A stretch of 27,028 nucleotides of DNA from positions 1-27,028 of the IMG/VR virus record IMGVR_UViG_3300026075_000205; one strand, given 5' to 3'. A program made the position numbers and the translations under genes. Within the stretch, counting starts at the first letter, position 1; each line of letters begins with the position of its first letter. The notes beneath the pieces were generated by a model, which saw nothing but the letters and a program-made list of their open reading frames with translations, was not told where the DNA came from and did no database searches. Positions 3,582 to 16,602 of this stretch are shown here, piece by piece. Source of the DNA: a virus.

Positions 3582-6500
3582 GTGGCTGTCCTCACCTTGT
3601 CCGACCGCCTGGCGATCGAGCACCAGAAACAAGTCGCGACTGTCGCGGGCGGGGTCACCTCCGGCGTTGTGAACATCGCGATGGGCGCCGACCCGCTGTC
3701 GGTGTCCACCTGGTTCTACGCCGCGATCGACGCGCTGACGGCCCGCATCCAGGCCGGATATGCGCTCAACCGGCGTTCGGCGATGGGCTACCTGCCCCAG
3801 CACGGCGCGCTCAACGGCGTGACCGTGCACCCAGTCCCGGGCTCGCTGGACACGGCCGCGCTGAAGGCGCGGTTGAACATCAACGGCCCGGTCGCGTTCA
3901 AGACGGCGATCGCCGCGGGCCGCGACGAAGAGGAAGCCCTGCGGTCGATGGCCACCCAGATGGGCGGCCTGGCCGACGAGATGGTGCGCAACGGCGACCG
4001 CGACGTCATCACCAACACGATCCGCCACGGCCGCGGCCTGGTCGCCTACCGGCGCCGTCTGGCCGGTAAGTCGTGCGGATTCTGCTCCATGATCGCGTCG
4101 CGCGGCGCGGTGTACACCGCCGAGACGAGCACGTTCCGCACGCACCCGCATTGCCGGTGCTGGGCCGAACCGGTGTACCGCCACGAGCCGGAGCCCCCAG
4201 AGGTGCAGCGGCTGGCGCGCCAGTGGCGTCGTGTCACCGCAGGCAAGCACGGCCAGGATGCCCAGCGGGCGTGGCGGCACCACTGGGAGCAGCGGGCCAC
4301 ACCGCAAGCCAAACAGCGCTTCGGCCTGGCCGCCTCCCAACCCGGCCCCGGGCCCGGTTTTAAGGCACCGCTGCCGTCGACACAGGTCGACATCCGGCCG
4401 GAATTGCAGGCCGCTCGCGGCGCAGCGCAACTGGATGCGGCGTTTCGGGCCGAGGCGAAACGCATCACCGGCCGCGACATCTCCGCGTACTTCGGCGGTT
4501 CGCTGCAGACCGCTCGCGAGCATGCCGAAGGCGTTCTGCGTGGGCTGGAACGCTTCCCCGACGCCAAGCTGCGCCGCGTCAACACCCACCCCATGACCGG
4601 GACAAGCGCCTACGCGCAGGCGGGCAATGAGGTCATTACCTTCAACTCCAAATGGGCCGGGGTTGCCGATCGTCAGGGCTACCTGGATTCGCTGGCCAAC
4701 GACGTCAAGGCGAACTGGCACCCGAAGGGCACCGACACGCCCGTCGCGAACGCGCTGCACGAGTTCGGCCACATCATCGACCTGGACACCATCGCCGGTT
4801 CAGCACATCTGGAAATCCAAGGCCTGGTGCTCGACGCCGCCGAACTCGCGGGGAAAACCGCATCCGAGGTCATCGAAGCGCAGGTGTCCCGGTATGCGCT
4901 GACCAACACACTCGAGCTCGCGGCTGAGGCGTTCTCGGACGTGATGATGAACGGCCCGCGGGCGTCCAAGCTCTCCCGCGAGATTTTCGACGTCCTGGTC
5001 GCCGAGTACAAACTGGGCGCAGGCAGGACCGGTATCAAGGGGTTCCTCTCCCCATCACTGCCTGCCCTGAGCGAGCCGGCGCCGCTGTCGGCCATGAAGG
5101 TCACAGAGCTGCGTGCCCTGGCCAAGGAGCGAGGGCTGACCGGCTATTCGAAGCTGACCAAGCCCCAGCTGCTGGAGCGCCTGGGCGGCGAGGCGAAGAT
5201 CGCCGTCCCCAAGGCCGCGGCAGTTGTTGACCGTTATCCGCTTGCTCCTGGCTATCGCGGTGCGACTGCGGCGCGCCGTCAGCGAGAGCGCGAAGAGGTT
5301 CTAACCCTGACGCGGGACGCGCCTGGTGGCGCACGCGACTGGCAGGGTATTTATCGCGAGCGCGCCGAGGCACTGGAAAGCACTGGCCACTTACGCCGGA
5401 CCGCTTCCGGCGACTTCACGCTGACAGATAAAGGCCGCGAGTACTTCGCAGTCAAGGGCGTTGCTGCGCCGCCCGCCACCCCAGCGGGGGATCTATCCAA
5501 GCTGAAGGTCACCGAGTTGCGCGCGCTGGCGAAGGAACGAGGCGTCACCGGCTACAGCAAGCTCACCAAGCCGCAGCTGCTCGACGAACTGCGCAAGCCC
5601 ATCCCGAAGGCCAAGGCGGGGAAGGCCACCGCGCAGGAGATCGCGACGGCACGGGGCAAGAACGCCAAGGTTCCCACCTACACGATCCCGCGAGACCTCC
5701 CCAAGGCCGACTTGGCGCGGATCAAGGACATCATCGGCACCGGCGAAGGAATCTCCCTGTCGATTGGTGCCGTGCCCGGCCTCGGCGTCAGGAACCTCGA
5801 TCTGCTGCTCCCGTTTAAGGCACGGGCGGCCGCCAACGCCAAGGAGCTCGCCCAGTTCGTGGTCGGATTCCGCAAGCAATACCCGGGTCTGTATGAGCAC
5901 CTCGCACACGAGGCCCAGGTCAAATCCTCATATGCCGAATGGCGGCAGGTTTTCAAGGTAAAGGGAACCGCCGTGCAGGTGCGCAAGGCCATGGTCGAGG
6001 AGCTGCGCGACCTCGTGTCGGACGCCCCCATCGTCGTCAGGCGGCGCCGCGAGTCGTCGCTGCTCGACATCCTGGAGAGCGGCCGCATGAAGACCCAATT
6101 CGAGACCGGCACGTCTGGCGGGTCGCTCGCACCAGAGATGCGCGCCGCCTTCGAGCAGCGAACCTGGGGCTATGCACGCGACCTGGATCCCAAGCTGAGG
6201 CCGATCTACGGGTACCTCTCACCTGCGGGCGTCGACGCCGAGAGCACTGCCTACCAGGCCGCCCAATACGGTGAGATCCGCATTGTGCTCAAGGATTCGG
6301 TCCGCCAGCGCACGTCGTTCATGGTAGGCGACTCCCTCGGCGCGTCGACGGGGACACCCACCGCGATGGATGCGCCCGGATGGGAAGCCTTCAACGTCTC
6401 ACCGGGCACTGGATGGCGCTCGCCGGGCGGCCTGGGCCGCGACTATGCCAGCGAAGCATTTCAGCGTAATCAGTACGTGGAGACCCAGATTCATGGCGGC

Positions 6501-6623
6501 GTGACGGTAGGCGACATCGCCGAGGTGGTCTTCACGCATGGCTACACGCCGCAAAAGGAGACCATTGAGGCGTTGCGGCGGGCAGGCGTGCCCTGGCGGA
6601 TCTCACGATCCCGCGCGCGGTAG
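3582..6623 (+). CDS. MuF minor capsid protein fused to metallopeptidase-like, SAP-like and ADP-ribosyltransferase-like domains
   Basis: A 1013-residue multidomain protein; plain MuF proteins are usually 250-400 residues. Residues 1-200 are MuF-like, with the signature Cys pair CGFC (165-168) and HPHCRCWAEPVY (Cys191, Cys193). Residues about 390-450 carry HEFGH (His393, Glu394, His397) and a downstream AAEAF (Glu449), the ligand pattern of a zinc gluzincin. Two SAP/Rho_N-like repeats sit at 502-534 and 638-670 around a winged-helix-like segment (LTDKGREYF). Residues about 815-1010 resemble ADP-ribosyltransferases of the DUF3626 type, ending in YVETQIHG (967-969, in the ExQ/ExE position) and DIAEVVFTHG. 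MuF proteins bind the portal region, and families with C-terminal toxin domains are known from phages. I infer a virion-packaged effector or toxin. The start is GTG at 3582, 13 bases after the portal stop. The ART assignment comes from pattern only. Confidence 0.82.
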   Translation: MAVLTLSDRLAIEHQKQVATVAGGVTSGVVNIAMGADPLSVSTWFYAAIDALTARIQAGYALNRRSAMGYLPQHGALNGVTVHPVPGSLDTAALKARLNINGPVAFKTAIAAGRDEEEALRSMATQMGGLADEMVRNGDRDVITNTIRHGRGLVAYRRRLAGKSCGFCSMIASRGAVYTAETSTFRTHPHCRCWAEPVYRHEPEPPEVQRLARQWRRVTAGKHGQDAQRAWRHHWEQRATPQAKQRFGLAASQPGPGPGFKAPLPSTQVDIRPELQAARGAAQLDAAFRAEAKRITGRDISAYFGGSLQTAREHAEGVLRGLERFPDAKLRRVNTHPMTGTSAYAQAGNEVITFNSKWAGVADRQGYLDSLANDVKANWHPKGTDTPVANALHEFGHIIDLDTIAGSAHLEIQGLVLDAAELAGKTASEVIEAQVSRYALTNTLELAAEAFSDVMMNGPRASKLSREIFDVLVAEYKLGAGRTGIKGFLSPSLPALSEPAPLSAMKVTELRALAKERGLTGYSKLTKPQLLERLGGEAKIAVPKAAAVVDRYPLAPGYRGATAARRQREREEVLTLTRDAPGGARDWQGIYRERAEALESTGHLRRTASGDFTLTDKGREYFAVKGVAAPPATPAGDLSKLKVTELRALAKERGVTGYSKLTKPQLLDELRKPIPKAKAGKATAQEIATARGKNAKVPTYTIPRDLPKADLARIKDIIGTGEGISLSIGAVPGLGVRNLDLLLPFKARAAANAKELAQFVVGFRKQYPGLYEHLAHEAQVKSSYAEWRQVFKVKGTAVQVRKAMVEELRDLVSDAPIVVRRRRESSLLDILESGRMKTQFETGTSGGSLAPEMRAAFEQRTWGYARDLDPKLRPIYGYLSPAGVDAESTAYQAAQYGEIRIVLKDSVRQRTSFMVGDSLGASTGTPTAMDAPGWEAFNVSPGTGWRSPGGLGRDYASEAFQRNQYVETQIHGGVTVGDIAEVVFTHGYTPQKETIEALRRAGVPWRISRSRAR
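5085..5183 (+). repeat. SAP/Rho_N-like repeat, copy 1
   Basis: This encodes residues 502-534 of the MuF fusion (core KVTELRALAKERG then TGYSKLTKPQLL). The helix-loop-helix pattern, with a Lys-Pro before the second helix, fits the SAP or Rho N-terminal fold, which binds nucleic acid in other proteins. The copy at 5493 is nearly identical in protein but differs at many synonymous bases. Confidence 0.7.
5493..5591 (+). repeat. SAP/Rho_N-like repeat, copy 2
   Basis: This encodes residues 638-670 of the MuF fusion, again with KVTELRALAKERG and TGYSKLTKPQLL. It lies about 300 bases after copy 1. The conserved protein with diverged third positions suggests an old duplication held by selection on the protein. 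Confidence 0.7.
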
Positions 6624-8737: not shown

Positions 8738-8767
8738 CACCTACTCCTATCCGGGAGATCCGCGCGC

Positions 8768-9832
8768 ATGAAGGTGTTGGCACTGCTGCACCAGTACGTC
8801 CCGGTCCGCAACGCGGGCGCGGAGACCATGCTTCACGGCATGCTCTCCGCGCTCGCCCGCGCGGGCTACGAGGTGCACGCGTCGCTGTCGATGCAAGTCG
8901 GCGAACCGTACGTCCAAGATGCGGTGCAGGTCTGGCCGCGCACCGAGGGCCAGAAAGCCAACCACATCCCGCATCTGCACGGCACGTCACTGCTCATCGC
9001 GCACCTGGACAACAGCGAGCCTGCCGCGTTTCTCGGCCATCTCAACGACATCCCAGTGATCCTCGTGCATCACAACACCTTCGACGTCTCGCGCAAGATG
9101 TTGCACTTCTACGGCGCCCGCGTCGATCTGGTGGTCACCAACAGCCAGTGGATGACCGACAACCTCAACGCGTGGCATGCGATCAACGAGCTGACCGCGC
9201 CGCCCATCCTGATCATGCGGCCGTTGGAGCGCTGGCCGGTCGGCCCGATCGAGGGCCCCCACGATCGCGTGACGCTGGTCAACATGAAGCGCCTGAAAGA
9301 GAACACCGACGGTGGATGGCTGACCAAAGGCGGGGAGACGTTCTGGCGCATCGCCGAACGGATGCCGAACACGCCGTTCCTCGGGGTCAAGGGCGCCTAC
9401 GGCGACCAGGCACCGGGGCAGCTTCCCAACGTCGAAGTGATCGGCCACGTCCCGGCCACGCAGATCCGTGAGCGGGTCTACGCGCGCGCGCGGGTCGTGA
9501 TCATGCCGTCCAACTACGAATCGTGGGGCCGGGTCGCCAGCGAGGCGATGGCCTGCGGCGTGCCGGTCATCGCGGCCCCGACACCCGGGCTGGCCGAAAA
9601 CCTCGGCGACGCCGGGAAGCTTGTCGACTGGCAGGACGTCGACGGCTACGTGCGGGCGCTGCAGACCCTGGCCCTGCCGGGACCGTACGCCGCGGCGTGC
9701 AGGAAGGCGCTCGCGCGGGCGGGGCAACAGCAACGGCTCTACGACGTCGAAGAGGCCGCATGGCTGGAGGCGGTGCAGCGGGTGGCCCGCAACTCGCCGA
9801 GAAGCTCGCCGAAAACCCCGGTGCTCGTATGA
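8768..9832 (+). CDS. Glycosyltransferase, GT4-like (GT-B fold)
   Basis: A 354-residue retaining glycosyltransferase-like protein, first of the sugar cassette. The N-terminus (MKVLALLHQYVP ... GAETMLHGML) is the usual GT4 acceptor-domain start. The C-terminal nucleotide-sugar domain has the EX7E motif in ESWGRVASE (Glu251 and Glu259), followed by AMACGVPVIA. No membrane segment or signal peptide is present, so it would act in the cytoplasm, transferring a sugar from a nucleotide donor to an unknown acceptor. GGGAG lies 10 bases before the ATG. Its stop overlaps the next start (ATGA). Placement right after the major capsid gene suggests a virion protein as acceptor; that is inference. Confidence 0.88.
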   Translation: MKVLALLHQYVPVRNAGAETMLHGMLSALARAGYEVHASLSMQVGEPYVQDAVQVWPRTEGQKANHIPHLHGTSLLIAHLDNSEPAAFLGHLNDIPVILVHHNTFDVSRKMLHFYGARVDLVVTNSQWMTDNLNAWHAINELTAPPILIMRPLERWPVGPIEGPHDRVTLVNMKRLKENTDGGWLTKGGETFWRIAERMPNTPFLGVKGAYGDQAPGQLPNVEVIGHVPATQIRERVYARARVVIMPSNYESWGRVASEAMACGVPVIAAPTPGLAENLGDAGKLVDWQDVDGYVRALQTLALPGPYAAACRKALARAGQQQRLYDVEEAAWLEAVQRVARNSPRSSPKTPVLV

Positions 9833-10440
9833 GGTTCGCGATCATCGGCCGCGGCCACCTCGCCGTGATCGCCTTCGACGTGCTGCGCAAACTCGGCACG
9901 GTCGTCAAGGTCGTCACCAACCGCATCGAGCCCCTGTGGGATGCGCGCCTACGCGCGCACGTCGGAAGGCTTTACCCCCAGGTCGACCTCGACACCTCCG
10001 GCGACTGGCGCCAACTGCTCGGCACTGACGCCGACCTGGTCCTGTCGGTCATGTACGACCGCATCATCGGCCGCGAGCTCATCGACCAGACCCGCGTGCT
10101 CAACCTGCACCTGGGCAAGTTGCCCGAATACCGCGGGATGCGGCCGGTCAACTGGGCGCTCAAGAACGGCGAGTCCGTCGCCGGGGTGACGTTGCACGAG
10201 GTGGACGAGGGTATCGACACCGGGCCGATCATCGCCCAGACCACATTCTCGATCTTCCCCGATGTGGACGAGGTCAAAGACGTCTACGGCCGCTCGGTCC
10301 GGGCGGCCGAGAACATCCTGCGCGACTACCTGCCGATCGTCGATCTGCTCAAGGCCACACCGCAGGACGAGAGCCGCGCCCACTACTACTCGGCCGCGGA
10401 CATCGCCCGGCTCGGCGAGCGGACGGACTGGACCCGATGA
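9829..10440 (+). CDS. Formyltransferase-family protein, probably sugar N-formyltransferase
   Basis: A 203-residue protein with the catalytic core of the 10-formyltetrahydrofolate-dependent formyltransferases (Met-tRNA, GAR and sugar N-formyltransferases). It shows NLH in the strand LNLHLGKLPEYRG (Asn92, His94) and the Asp of DEGIDTGPI (Asp130), the Asn-His-Asp triad. At 203 residues it lacks the C-terminal tRNA-binding domain of methionyl-tRNA formyltransferase (about 310 residues). With glycosyltransferases and a sugar dehydrogenase beside it, formylation of a nucleotide-linked amino sugar is the best guess. The ATG at 9829 overlaps the preceding stop by 4 bases; a longer open frame upstream lies wholly inside the GT4 gene and was not used. 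Confidence 0.82.
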   Translation: MRFAIIGRGHLAVIAFDVLRKLGTVVKVVTNRIEPLWDARLRAHVGRLYPQVDLDTSGDWRQLLGTDADLVLSVMYDRIIGRELIDQTRVLNLHLGKLPEYRGMRPVNWALKNGESVAGVTLHEVDEGIDTGPIIAQTTFSIFPDVDEVKDVYGRSVRAAENILRDYLPIVDLLKATPQDESRAHYYSAADIARLGERTDWTR

Positions 10441-11330
10441 AGGCTGCGCTGAGGGCGGCTCCGCTGCGGGTGGCACTGGTCGGCGCGGGAGTGATGGGCG
10501 CCCGGCACGCCCGCGTGATCGCCGAGTCGCCACGCACGACGCTGGCCCGGGTCATCGACCCAGACCCGGCGGCCGGCCGGTTCGGCTGCGACTGGACGCC
10601 AGAGCTTGACCTGACGGGTGTGGACGCCGTGATCGTGGCCGCGCCCAACCCGCTGCATGAGCAGATCGCCGCCGACGTGATCGAGGCTGGTCTGCCGGTC
10701 CTCGTGGAGAAACCGCTGGCGGCCGACCTGGACGCCGCGACCCGAACCGTCGAACTGGCGGCCAAACTCGATGTGCCGATCATGTGCGGATTCGTCGACC
10801 GGTTCAATCCGGCATGGCTGGCGCTGCGCTCGGTGCTAGGCGGCCGCACGCCGGTCCATCTGACCATCGTGCGGCACTCACCGTTTCAGACCCGGGTGCT
10901 CGAAAGCGTGGCCTGGGATCTGCTCATCCATCTGGCAGATCACGCCATCGCACTGTATGGCGGTGCCGATCCCGACGCGGTGTGGGCGCGGCGAACCACC
11001 CACGCGTCGCCGGTATCGGATGACACCGCCGACGCCCTGGCCACCTGGGGGTCGGGCACCGGGATCCTCTCCGCGGTCAGGCTGGGCCAGCGGCGAATGT
11101 GGACGGTCACCGCGCACGCCCCGGGCGTCACCGTTTTCGCCGACCTCGTCGGCCGCCAGGTGACGGTCAGCACGGGCGGGGCCACGGAATATGCCCCGGT
11201 CGGTGACCGCGAGCCGCTGGCCGCGCAACTGGACCACTTCGCCGGCCTCGCCCAGGGTTACGGCGACGCCGAAGCCGAGCGGGAGTCGATCCTGCCGGCC
11301 CACCGCCTGATCGACCGGGTAATGAAGTGA
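10437..11330 (+). CDS. Gfo/Idh/MocA family sugar dehydrogenase
   Basis: A 297-residue NAD(P)-dependent oxidoreductase. The Rossmann loop VALVGAGVMG lies at residues 12-21 and the family hallmark EKP at 91-93 (VEKPLAAD). The following GFVDRFNPAW and the later DLLIHLADHAIAL resemble enzymes of the WlbA/GnnA group that oxidise C3 of UDP-N-acetylhexosamine derivatives to a 3-keto sugar before amination. The exact substrate cannot be read from sequence. It overlaps both neighbours by 4 bases, so expression is probably tightly coupled. The aminotransferase that normally follows such a dehydrogenase is not in the window. Confidence 0.87.
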   Translation: MKAALRAAPLRVALVGAGVMGARHARVIAESPRTTLARVIDPDPAAGRFGCDWTPELDLTGVDAVIVAAPNPLHEQIAADVIEAGLPVLVEKPLAADLDAATRTVELAAKLDVPIMCGFVDRFNPAWLALRSVLGGRTPVHLTIVRHSPFQTRVLESVAWDLLIHLADHAIALYGGADPDAVWARRTTHASPVSDDTADALATWGSGTGILSAVRLGQRRMWTVTAHAPGVTVFADLVGRQVTVSTGGATEYAPVGDREPLAAQLDHFAGLAQGYGDAEAERESILPAHRLIDRVMK

Positions 11331-11782
11331 TTCCTGCAATGATCCACCCGGACGGTATATGCGAGGGCAAGATCGGCGACGGGACCCGCGTCTGGGCGTT
11401 CGCGCATGTCATGCCCGGGGCCGTGCTCGGGCAGGATTGCAACGTCGGCGAGGGTGCCTACATCGAGGACGACGTCATCCTCGGCGACCGGGTGACGGTG
11501 AAGAACCGGGCTCAGCTCTTCGACGGTCTGCGCGTCGGCGACGATGTGTTCATCGGGCCGGGCGTGGTGTTCTGCAACGACCCGTCACCCAGGTCGAGAG
11601 TTCCCCGCACATCGGCCGGGCCGATCACCGTCGGCGCGGGTGCGTCGATCGGCGCGAACGCGACGATCCTGCCGGGCGTGACCATCGGGCAGGACGCGAT
11701 GGTCGGCGCCGGCTGCGTGGTGGTTCGCGATGTGCCGCCCGGCGCGACGGTGATCGGCAACCCCGCCCGGGTCGTGCGGTGA
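11327..11782 (+). CDS. Left-handed beta-helix sugar N-acetyltransferase (WbpD/WlbB/FdtC-like)
   Basis: A 151-residue hexapeptide-repeat acyltransferase. Repeated [IV]-G-[DE]-x-[VAC] turns run through the protein, for example LGQDCNVGEGAYIED, IGANATILPGVTIG and MVGAGCVVVRDVPPG. The core NRAQLFDGLRVGDDVFIGP followed by FCNDPSPRS matches the group that N-acetylates 3-amino sugars attached to UDP or dTDP, often as trimers using acetyl-CoA. Pairing with the preceding dehydrogenase agrees with a pathway 3-keto, 3-amino, 3-acylamido sugar. The start is GTG at 11327; an ATG at 11339 is an alternative. It overlaps the dehydrogenase by 4 bases and lies 7 bases before the next gene. Confidence 0.85.
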   Translation: MIPAMIHPDGICEGKIGDGTRVWAFAHVMPGAVLGQDCNVGEGAYIEDDVILGDRVTVKNRAQLFDGLRVGDDVFIGPGVVFCNDPSPRSRVPRTSAGPITVGAGASIGANATILPGVTIGQDAMVGAGCVVVRDVPPGATVIGNPARVVR

Positions 11783-11789
11783 TGTCGCG

Positions 11790-12449
11790 GTGAGCCTCGC
11801 CATCCTCATCCCGTACCGGCCCGACAACGATCGCCGCGCGCGGATCTACGCCGCCACCTCGCGACTGTGGGCGGACAGAGGCGTCGAGGCAGACGTCGAG
11901 GTCATCCACTCCGGCGACGGACTGCGGGGCGAGTTCAGTTACTCGCGGGCGGCCAACCGGGCCCGGGCCAAGACAGACGCGCAGTGCCTGATCACCTACA
12001 GCGTCGATGCGCTGCCGCTCTCGGCGCAATTCCTGCAGCGCATCGAGGCGCAGCTGTGCGCCGGGCTGCCGTGGTCGTGCATCTTCGCGGGCCAGCAGCG
12101 CTTCACCCCCGAACAGACCGGCGTCATCTTCGACGGCGGCGACCCCGGACCCGCCGCCGGGCAGATCTGCATGGGCCGCGAAGCGCTCATGGCGGTGCGC
12201 GCCGACGTCTGGGACGAGTTGCGCGGCATGGACGAGCGCTTCGTCGGCTGGGGTGCCGAGGACATGGCGTTCTACAAGGTGCTTTCCACCGTCTACCCGC
12301 AGGGGTGCGACGTGCCGACCGAGGGACTGTTCCAGTCGCTGTGGCATCCGGAAACGTCCCGGCTGGCATGGTGGGGCAACGTCGAACTCATGCGCAGGTA
12401 CGACGAGCCGCCACCCGATGAGCTGAAAGCCTGGTATCTGGCCCGGTGA
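11790..12449 (+). CDS. Glycosyltransferase, GT-A type with GWGAED motif (copy 1)
   Basis: A 219-residue protein. The N-terminal strand LAILIPYRPDND is typical of GT2/GT27-like enzymes, and EFSYSRAANRARAKT is a nucleotide-sugar-domain helix. The segment MDERFVGWGAEDMAF (Trp154, Glu157, Asp158) matches the C-terminal motif of beta-1,4-galactosyltransferase and polypeptide GalNAc-transferase families, where it binds acceptor and metal. WHPE near the C-terminus could supply a metal-binding His. It probably works in the cytoplasm, since no membrane helix is present. It is clearly paralogous to the next gene. The start is GTG at 11790. Confidence 0.83.
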   Translation: MSLAILIPYRPDNDRRARIYAATSRLWADRGVEADVEVIHSGDGLRGEFSYSRAANRARAKTDAQCLITYSVDALPLSAQFLQRIEAQLCAGLPWSCIFAGQQRFTPEQTGVIFDGGDPGPAAGQICMGREALMAVRADVWDELRGMDERFVGWGAEDMAFYKVLSTVYPQGCDVPTEGLFQSLWHPETSRLAWWGNVELMRRYDEPPPDELKAWYLAR

Positions 12450-15049: not shown

Positions 15050-15607
15050 ATGAGCCTGCTCTCGGGAGCCGTCAGGGTCGGGGTGACTGGCGAGCTCAGC
15101 GTGGCCCCCGTCGGGACCGCGGCACCCACGACGTCAACGTCTTCACTCAACGCCTCATTCATCGGCATGGGCTACGTCTCCGAGGACGGCGTCACCGAGT
15201 CCTATGACGAGACGATCGAGGACATCATCGCGTGGCAGAACGCGACCATTGTGCGCAGTGCCACGACACAGTCGAAGGCCACGCTGCAGATGACCCTCAT
15301 CGAGTCCAAGGGCAAGGTCGCCGAGCTGTTCCACAAGACCTCGACGGTCGCCGTGGTCAGCGCCGGGCAGTGGAAGATGGACGTCAAGGCGCCCTCGGCG
15401 GACCCGCGCGCGTTCGTGCTGGACGTGATCGACGGGTCCAAGCACATCCGCATCTACGTCGCCAACGGCGAGGTCACCGAACGCGGCGAGATCGTGTACG
15501 CCAATGGCGAGCCCGTCGGCTACGACATCACCATCACGTGCTATCCCGACTCCAATAACGTCGTGCTGACCAAGTTCACCGACGACACGAACTGGGGCTA
15601 TAGCTGA
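15050..15607 (+). CDS. Major tail (tube) protein
   Basis: A 185-residue tube subunit. It begins with a leader-like segment GAVRVGVTGELSVAP, as in siphovirus tail tube proteins, and has the characteristic beta-strand run with GMGYVSEDGVTESYDE, IIAWQNATIVRS and TLQMTLIES. The end YDITITCYPDSNNVVLTKF matches the usual C-terminal strand. GGAGGTAAGG precedes the ATG, a strong site suited to high expression. It ends 20 bases from the stop of a reverse-strand gene, so the two are convergent. Confidence 0.92.
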   Translation: MSLLSGAVRVGVTGELSVAPVGTAAPTTSTSSLNASFIGMGYVSEDGVTESYDETIEDIIAWQNATIVRSATTQSKATLQMTLIESKGKVAELFHKTSTVAVVSAGQWKMDVKAPSADPRAFVLDVIDGSKHIRIYVANGEVTERGEIVYANGEPVGYDITITCYPDSNNVVLTKFTDDTNWGYS

Positions 15608-15627: not shown

Positions 15628-15783
15628 TCAGTTGGGCGGCAACTGGCTGAGCTGATACGCGAACAGCATCCCGAGCACGAACACCGCGAGTATCAGCGCT
15701 GCCATGCGCGCCTTGCGCTTGATCGCGTGGCTGCGGGGCTCATCGGGCGGGTTGCCGATACGAAGGTACGAGTCTCGTTTCAC
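15628..15783 (-). CDS. Small single-pass membrane protein, reverse strand
   Basis: A 51-residue ORF. The first half is soluble and basic (SYLRIGNPPDEP, HAIKRKARM), followed by a clear hydrophobic helix (MAALILAVFVLGMLF) and a short polar tail. The basic residues before the helix predict an N-in, C-out orientation. The start is GTG at 15783, 39 bases after the TM2 gene stop, so both probably share one reverse transcript. The ribosome site is weak. A 6-bp hairpin (15629-15645) lies in its last codons. I recognise no family. Confidence 0.62.
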   Translation of the reverse strand: MKRDSYLRIGNPPDEPRSHAIKRKARMAALILAVFVLGMLFAYQLSQLPPN

Positions 15784-15822
15784 GCCCCGAGGGTAAGCCC
15801 CCCAACGCCATGATCGCCCTAG

Positions 15823-16065
15823 TTAAAAGCCCAGCGTGTTGATCCGCTTCACTTGGGTGGGCAACGTGAACATGTCGATGAACCAGGCAACCAGCCCCCA
15901 GGCGGCGGTGAGCAGGTAGCCCAGACCTCGCCCGGTCTTGCCCAAGTAGAACTGGTGCACGCCGAAGATGCCGAAGAAGAACCACAGCGCATAGGCGACA
16001 CCGACCGACTTGGCTTTGGCTCCGGTGGCTTGGGTGATCTGGACCGGCGTAGGGGTGGCCGTCAT
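15823..16065 (-). CDS. TM2-domain membrane protein, reverse strand
   Basis: An 80-residue protein with a TM2 domain: AYALWFFFGIFGVHQFYLGKTG is the first helix plus the hallmark GxHxFYLG turn, then RGLGYLLTAAWGLVAWFIDMFTL is the second helix. The N-terminal 17 residues are a Pro/Thr-rich leader. TM2 proteins sit in the cytoplasmic membrane; their function in bacteria is mostly unknown. AAGGAG (complement of 16072-16077) lies 6 bases before the ATG at 16065, good evidence that the gene is translated. It is in reverse orientation between the tail tube and tail chaperone genes, where a phage late operon normally has none. A superinfection-exclusion or host-modifying role is possible but unproven. 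Confidence 0.85.
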   Translation of the reverse strand: MTATPTPVQITQATGAKAKSVGVAYALWFFFGIFGVHQFYLGKTGRGLGYLLTAAWGLVAWFIDMFTLPTQVKRINTLGF

Positions 16066-16221
16066 CGCACGCTCCTTGTCTCAAGGGGATATGTCGGCAA
16101 GGTAGCGCCCGGCCGCAAGACACGCCAGGACAGATCTGCGACAAGCAGCACCCGCCAGTTCGCGCCGCGCGGACGTGGGCTGGCGGGCCCACCATCCGCG
16201 CACACACGAAGGAATCCGCGC
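16066..16221. promoter_or_regulatory. Divergent gap between TM2 and chaperone genes
   Basis: This 156-base gap lies between the reverse TM2 gene and the forward chaperone gene, so a promoter for the reverse pair must lie here or within the chaperone genes. On the reverse strand TTGCGG is followed after 17 bases by GACATA, a poor -35/-10 candidate. No convincing promoter or terminator is seen on either strand. Confidence 0.25.
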
Positions 16222-16602
16222 ATGTCAGAAGAAGAGCAATACGACTACGACCTCGACGCGCTTGTCGTCGACGCCGAGAGCGCCCCACCGTTCCGCTTCA
16301 AATGGCGTGGCGAAGTGTGGGAAATGCCGCTGATGAACGCAATGCCCTTCCAGGATCAGATGGACCTGGAGGAGGCCACCGTCGAGCAATCCATGGGCCT
16401 GATCATGGGCGAGGAGCAGTTCGCGCGCTTCATGCTCGCAGGCACACCAGCCAAGCCGCCGATCTCTACCGGCCGCATGCGCGAACTGATCGACCAATGG
16501 CACAAGTTTCAAGGCTTGACGCCGGGGGAATCGCGGGCCTCGCGGCGTTCCTCCGGGAACACGGCGAGGCCGTCGAAGCGGACCTCGCGTTCCGGCAGAT
16601 AG
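16222..16602 (+). CDS. Tail assembly chaperone, short form (gpG-like)
   Basis: A 126-residue acidic protein between the tail tube and tape measure genes, the position of lambda gpG. It starts with a very acidic segment (SEEEQYDYDLDALVVDAES), then FRFKWRGEVWEMPLMNAMPF, common in actinophage chaperones, and the helix EEATVEQSMGLIMGEEQF. It would coat the tape measure before tail polymerisation. The last 23 residues are Arg/Ser-rich and look like out-of-frame sequence, which fits with most of the conserved fold lying before the slip site. The ATG at 16222 has GAAGGA upstream. Confidence 0.88.
   Translation: MSEEEQYDYDLDALVVDAESAPPFRFKWRGEVWEMPLMNAMPFQDQMDLEEATVEQSMGLIMGEEQFARFMLAGTPAKPPISTGRMRELIDQWHKFQGLTPGESRASRRSSGNTARPSKRTSRSGR

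Follow-up and report, generated by a model that had tools for sequence, protein, structure and literature searches.

In translational pseudoknot leaders, such as those of ribosomal protein operons and replication genes, initiation is controlled by a hairpin of the mRNA leader, whose loop base-pairs close to the start codon. A single late transcript has to supply tailed phages with much more tube protein than chaperone, and we know of no explanation for how actinophages achieve this ratio. Here we analyse a 27,028-nucleotide (nt) record of a long-tailed soil bacteriophage (IMG/VR record IMGVR_UViG_3300026075_000205, referred to in full as the window), in which the spacer between the genes for the major tail tube protein (MTP) and the tail assembly chaperone (TAC) holds a candidate pseudoknot leader and, upstream of it, an inserted reverse-strand module that includes a TM2-domain gene. 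The hosts of phages with a related tail tube protein are mostly Actinobacteria. The leader differs from the known translational pseudoknot leaders in that it has no sequence relation to them, belongs to a phage tail gene and offers its loop two or three alternative partner repeats.

Two elements described in actinophages bear comparison with this leader. A stem-loop to the right of the major tail gene of cluster O phages, followed by TTTCT, has been described as a terminator (PMC4351075); the hairpin analysed here likewise lies directly after the MTP gene, but the relevant passage of that report describes no complementarity between the loop and a start site. The start-associated sequences SAS and ESAS of cluster K and EF phages are multi-copy elements, with 10–19 copies of one conserved sequence per genome, which in cluster K stand at non-structural genes, according to the passages on them (PMC3203893, PMC7302621). 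Like the TAC leader, they are conserved elements that stand at translation starts, some of them with upstream inverted repeats, whereas the TAC leader occurs once per genome, varies in sequence and is marked by self-complementarity. An identification of the TAC leader with the cluster K SAS/ESAS was considered and rejected, its repeat TCCGCGC not being over-represented in the window (18 found versus 19.4 expected). No relevant Rfam 15 match was found in the window or in 17 further related loci, and we found no published description of loop-to-TAC-start complementarity in the open-access literature, including the passages on SAS/ESAS and on the cluster O stem-loop. The TAC leader is thus apparently undescribed, although an earlier description elsewhere is possible because the coverage was of open-access literature only.

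The inserted module resembles morons and lysogenic-conversion genes, as represented by passages on the P22 pid locus (PMC3573128) and the superinfection exclusion protein SieA (PMC10883804), in being extra, opposite-strand genes with membrane products that lie between conserved late genes and are missing in relatives. It differs from them in that a consensus scan recognised no promoter or terminator for the cassette.

The leader ahead of the chaperone gene

Conservation between the window and its relatives resumes at a hairpin just upstream of TAC (16151–16187, forward strand). Its arms, CCCGCCAG (16151–16158) and CTGGCGGG (16180–16187), form a paired stem of a sequence that varies in relatives, and its apical loop, GCGCGGA (16167–16173), is complementary to two downstream copies of TCCGCGC on the same strand. 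The first of these anti-loop repeats lies at 16195–16201 and the second, at 16215–16221, touches the ATG of TAC. Among phages that have the GCGCGGA loop, the stem differs in sequence yet pairs (21 elements fall into eight stem classes with no shared 6-mer). Among cultured phages even the loop varies, and the repeats change with it, as in Spartoi (GAAGACCCAAA). The anti-loop is GACCCGCGC in VWB, CCAAGGCA in phiGD17-1, GGCTCCC in Quenya and CCCACGC in Reedo and Warda, each present twice; three copies are found in Kittykat (GATCCC or ATCCCG), Liefie (CCCACCA) and Pokerus (CACCAG); and in Melba CCTGCC stands immediately 5' of the ATG. The element is also present in the cultured phage Avani, mycobacteriophages being among its carriers, and prophages in bacterial genomes have further versions beside the start (CGGGACCA in L374 and CACGGCA in L384). 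The distance from the last repeat to the start codon is often 0–2 nt. The loop is thus complementary to a segment at the TAC start and co-varies with it between genomes, the arrangement by which a translational pseudoknot leader is recognised.

We assessed this complementarity in 45 non-redundant loci that were picked by MTP protein or annotation, not by motif. For the strongest spacer hairpin of each locus, the length of the loop complement in its own leader was compared with that in the leaders of phages with a different loop. A complement of at least 7 nt was present in 34 of the 45 own leaders versus 2.1% of mismatched pairs, and at least two places with a 6-nt complement were present in 30 versus 1.2%. 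The summed match length was 321, compared with 179 (standard deviation 13) in 100,000 permutations, none of which reached the observed value. These matches fall into 15 classes without a shared 6-mer, which is the more cautious count because loci of one and the same loop class lack independence. No permutation reached the observed value for the 19 cultured phages with annotated boundaries alone (50,000 permutations) or for an initial set of 33 loci, which overlaps in part (20,000 permutations). Shuffling the leader of a single locus gave a weak signal (8 of 38 loci at p<=0.01), because a shuffled short GC-rich leader with two repeat copies retains much of the match, and cross-pairing between loci was preferred as the control. 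A pattern scan for GCGCGGA..TCCGCGC..TCCGCGC, which gave many chance matches among the matches listed, was used only to fetch loci. Automatic calling had misplaced the TAC start in several loci, which were dropped; the annotated cultured phages form the clean set.

The energy of the isolated loop–repeat duplex ranged from -12.7 to -18 kcal/mol in five examples. We infer that the leader is an RNA pseudoknot that restrains translation of TAC. The mRNA would form the hairpin, and its loop would pair with one repeat to give the pseudoknot. If the partner is the start-proximal repeat, the initiation region would be masked and less TAC translated, so that TAC would stay scarce beside MTP, which the same mRNA yields in far greater abundance; the upstream repeat could compete for the loop. 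We regard it as likely that the leader represents an undescribed family of pseudoknot leaders in the MTP–TAC spacer of many phages of Actinobacteria, with hosts that include Mycobacterium, Gordonia, Arthrobacter, Microbacterium, Streptomyces, Rothia, Curtobacterium and others. This proposed family is defined by self-complementarity and not by sequence, namely a variable hairpin whose loop would pair with one to three repeats around the chaperone start. It would set the ratio of tube protein to chaperone from one mRNA and would form the right border of a hotspot for reverse-strand accessory genes.

The TAC leader element is widespread, not universal. By the criteria used, no hairpin was found in Wizzo, which has a 28-nt spacer, or in Lederberg, and none was found in some loci with spacers of 33–46 nt. 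Ibantik and Catfish have a hairpin with no convincing complement. Six prophages (L380, L381, L382, L385, L388 and L394) have a strong spacer hairpin with no loop complement downstream, and these constitute a natural negative class for the pseudoknot interpretation.

Elsewhere in the window, another TCCGCGC (8759–8765) stands just before an ATG at 8768, directly 3' of the major head protein gene. The 30-nt gap that holds it has no hairpin, and this copy could be due to chance or could be a second target of the TAC-leader loop.

Reverse-strand genes between tube and chaperone

An earlier note on the window, in which the RNA leader at the right side of the slot had no part, described two reverse-strand genes inside the tail operon, and the coordinates and content of both ORFs (open reading frames) proved to be exactly as claimed there. 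The larger is a TM2-domain membrane protein gene of 80 amino acids (15823–16065, reverse strand) with an ATG start. It matched Pfam PF05154 with 61.5 bits against a cut-off of 27.9, exceeding the curated threshold, and at E=8.6e-17 the match is not due to chance. The good Shine-Dalgarno sequence that had been attributed to this gene is present, AAGGAG (16072–16077, reverse strand) being read six bases upstream of the ATG. Its base composition is coding-like, and a comparison with a 95%-identical contig (L007) revealed three synonymous and no nonsynonymous changes in 81 codons; TM2 is certainly a real coding gene. A single-sequence AlphaFold model of modest confidence (mean pLDDT 71) gave a two-helix hairpin, with helices at residues 8–40 and 44–78 joined by a short turn, and the hydropathy profile has two peaks.

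The second ORF comprises 51 codons (15628–15783, reverse strand), starts with GTG, has no good Shine-Dalgarno sequence and contains one predicted transmembrane segment (residues 27–45, mean hydropathy 2.28). Its GC content by codon position is coding-like (0.63/0.42/0.83), and it is open in L007, from which it differs by three synonymous changes and by three nonsynonymous ones that all lie ahead of the hydrophobic segment. This ORF probably, not certainly, codes for a protein, which leaves the two genes of the earlier note as one firm gene and one probable gene. Neither ORF matched the NCBI families.

The TM2 product shares with known TM2-domain proteins (PF05154) the domain match and the two predicted helices, and it has relatives in bacteria and in unrelated phages. 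It differs from them in the reverse placement of its gene between MTP and TAC, beside a small ORF. Homologues were found in 59 of 395 actinobacterial genomes sampled, the closest being 51% identical, and also in unrelated phages in varied contexts, among them Arthrobacter phage 1191A (51% over 60 amino acids) and T4-like Aeromonas phages. A prophage context was checked for the closest bacterial TM2 gene (L356), which is apparently chromosomal: the only MTP match there was at chance level (E=0.59) and the neighbouring genes looked chromosomal by eye.

Scanning viral contigs with the MTP protein yielded 18 relatives at an identity of at least 58%. Most lack the inserted segment, whose approximate edges from alignment and spacer comparison are 15608 and 16149, and three (L005, L006 and L007) contain the same insert, with 95–100% DNA identity over the matched contig. 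No cultured carrier of this insert was found. The interruption of the tail operon that had been claimed is real: from the MTP stop to the TAC start the window has 614 nt, compared with 80–146 nt in seven measured insert-free relatives, and in a further relative without the insert (L022) MTP and TAC overlap. The left border of this slot is the MTP gene (15050–15607, forward strand; PF25681, E=1e-23; phrog_117, E=9.5e-47), and the right border is the first frame of TAC (16222–16602, forward strand; phrog_22068, E=2.3e-9; phrog_5010, E=1e-5).

Other relatives carry other genes in the same slot. We found a reverse-strand HNH endonuclease (PF01844) in L015 (5492–6163, E=1.1e-9) and in L019 (4338–4979, E=1.6e-10), and in L141 an 84-amino-acid reverse-strand ORF with a strong transmembrane segment, which is unrelated to TM2 and has no Pfam match. 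All three kinds of insert are on the reverse strand, and all leave the RNA leader ahead of TAC intact. A search for mobile-element repeats at the insertion edges returned only short, chance-level matches. Because different kinds of insert occupy the same place in relatives, the MTP–TAC slot is an insertion hotspot, and the TM2 module is, judged from these genome comparisons, a moron-like accessory cassette within it, an addition at a place where the flanking genes are direct neighbours in relatives. The hotspot would be bounded on the left by the MTP stop and on the right by a 5' leader of TAC that is self-contained. Insertions after MTP do not part the hairpin from TAC, so the hairpin is an element of TAC rather than of the 3' end of MTP; and as the leader moves together with TAC, insertions upstream of it would leave the control of TAC undisturbed.

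The window itself ends short of the integrase region. A tyrosine integrase was present in all five long related contigs (41–46 kb), which makes the lineage probably temperate; no serine recombinase was found in these five. Expression of the cassette in the prophage is plausible.

Competing explanations

The explanation that we favour, at a rough probability of 55%, combines both elements: a temperate phage carrying a moron-like TM2 cassette in an insertion hotspot, next to a TAC leader whose pseudoknot would restrain translation. The cassette would encode a TM2 membrane protein that probably came from bacteria and a probable single-pass partner, and would have a leftward transcript of its own, made most likely in the prophage. 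Its products may act at the cell membrane, in superinfection exclusion or in another lysogenic-conversion trait. Several results weigh against this combination. RNAfold, which does not model pseudoknots, prefers for the window a nested structure in which the loop and repeat 1 are paired and the stem is opened, so that a switch between mutually exclusive structures is also possible, and several phages lack anti-loops. For the cassette, a consensus scan recognised no reverse-strand promoter, although such a scan covers actinobacterial promoters poorly, and found no usable reverse-strand terminator downstream of the module. Conservation as proteins, on which the earlier note had made its proposal depend, holds for TM2 in those few relatives in which it occurs; a search outside the lineage found nothing related to the 51-codon ORF. 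Neither ORF matched the PADLOC defence library. What had been proposed about placement stands, in that these are reverse-strand accessory genes in a slot that holds varied reverse-strand genes in relatives; superinfection exclusion itself gained nothing from that search and is perhaps the role of the TM2 cassette, by analogy with known morons.

For the leader, the hairpin could be only a terminator or attenuator after MTP, with the loop and repeats serving as DNA sites for a regulator and no pseudoknot being formed. The prophages that have the hairpin and no anti-loops would fit such an arrangement. It accounts poorly for a complementary stretch that sits in the apical loop, for a last repeat that often abuts the start codon and for inserts that part MTP from the hairpin and never the hairpin from TAC. 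Stem pairing is kept while the sequence varies, which makes readings at the DNA level less likely, and we consider this explanation unlikely. The cassette, in turn, could be neutral or selfish cargo, hitchhiking bacterial DNA of no benefit to the phage in a slot that is a recombination hotspot of HNH homing elements. HNH genes do occupy the slot in two relatives, and only four contigs, nearly identical to one another, are known to carry the insert; against this stand the absence of nonsynonymous changes beside three synonymous ones in TM2, its good Shine-Dalgarno sequence and coding-like composition, and the second, unrelated membrane ORF in the slot of L141. We find this account doubtful. A role of the module in the lytic cycle, with TM2 and the small ORF acting as accessory holin or lysis-timing proteins or aiding virion release at the membrane, is improbable: small membrane proteins with two segments and one segment fit the holin-type size, but they lie in reverse orientation within a forward late operon, match no holin family and adjoin no recognised lysis gene. 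Similarly small is the chance that the leftward transcript matters as RNA, running past the 51-codon ORF antisense to MTP and helping to silence the structural genes in the prophage. The geometry would permit it, on a reverse strand with no terminator found after the module, whereas TM2 is conserved as a protein and the inserts of the slot differ widely in content.

Tail operon and significance of the leader

The forward-strand genes run in the order portal, major head protein, head–tail adaptor, tail terminator, MTP, TAC and tape measure. Shortly before the first TAC frame ends, GGGGGAA (16524–16530) is a likely slippery site, at which the usual frameshift would give rise to the long chaperone. 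Between the major head protein and the head–tail adaptor lies a forward sugar-modification cassette (8768–12449) with a GT4 glycosyltransferase, a formyltransferase, a Gfo/Idh/MocA oxidoreductase, a hexapeptide acyltransferase and a weak galactosyltransferase match, which may have a role in virion glycosylation. The head region also encodes a 1013-amino-acid protein (3582–6623) with an unusual combination of VG15, SAP and Rho_N domains and a DUF3626 match.

Taken alone, the TM2 cassette is ordinary, one more case of optional membrane genes in temperate phages. The leader matters more and would be of interest to specialists. Self-complementarity is enough to recognise it, and its carriers include the cultured phages Liefie, Pokerus, Avani, Melba, Quenya, Reedo and VWB. 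It would help annotators to place the chaperone start, and would mark an insertion-tolerant place in the tail operon.
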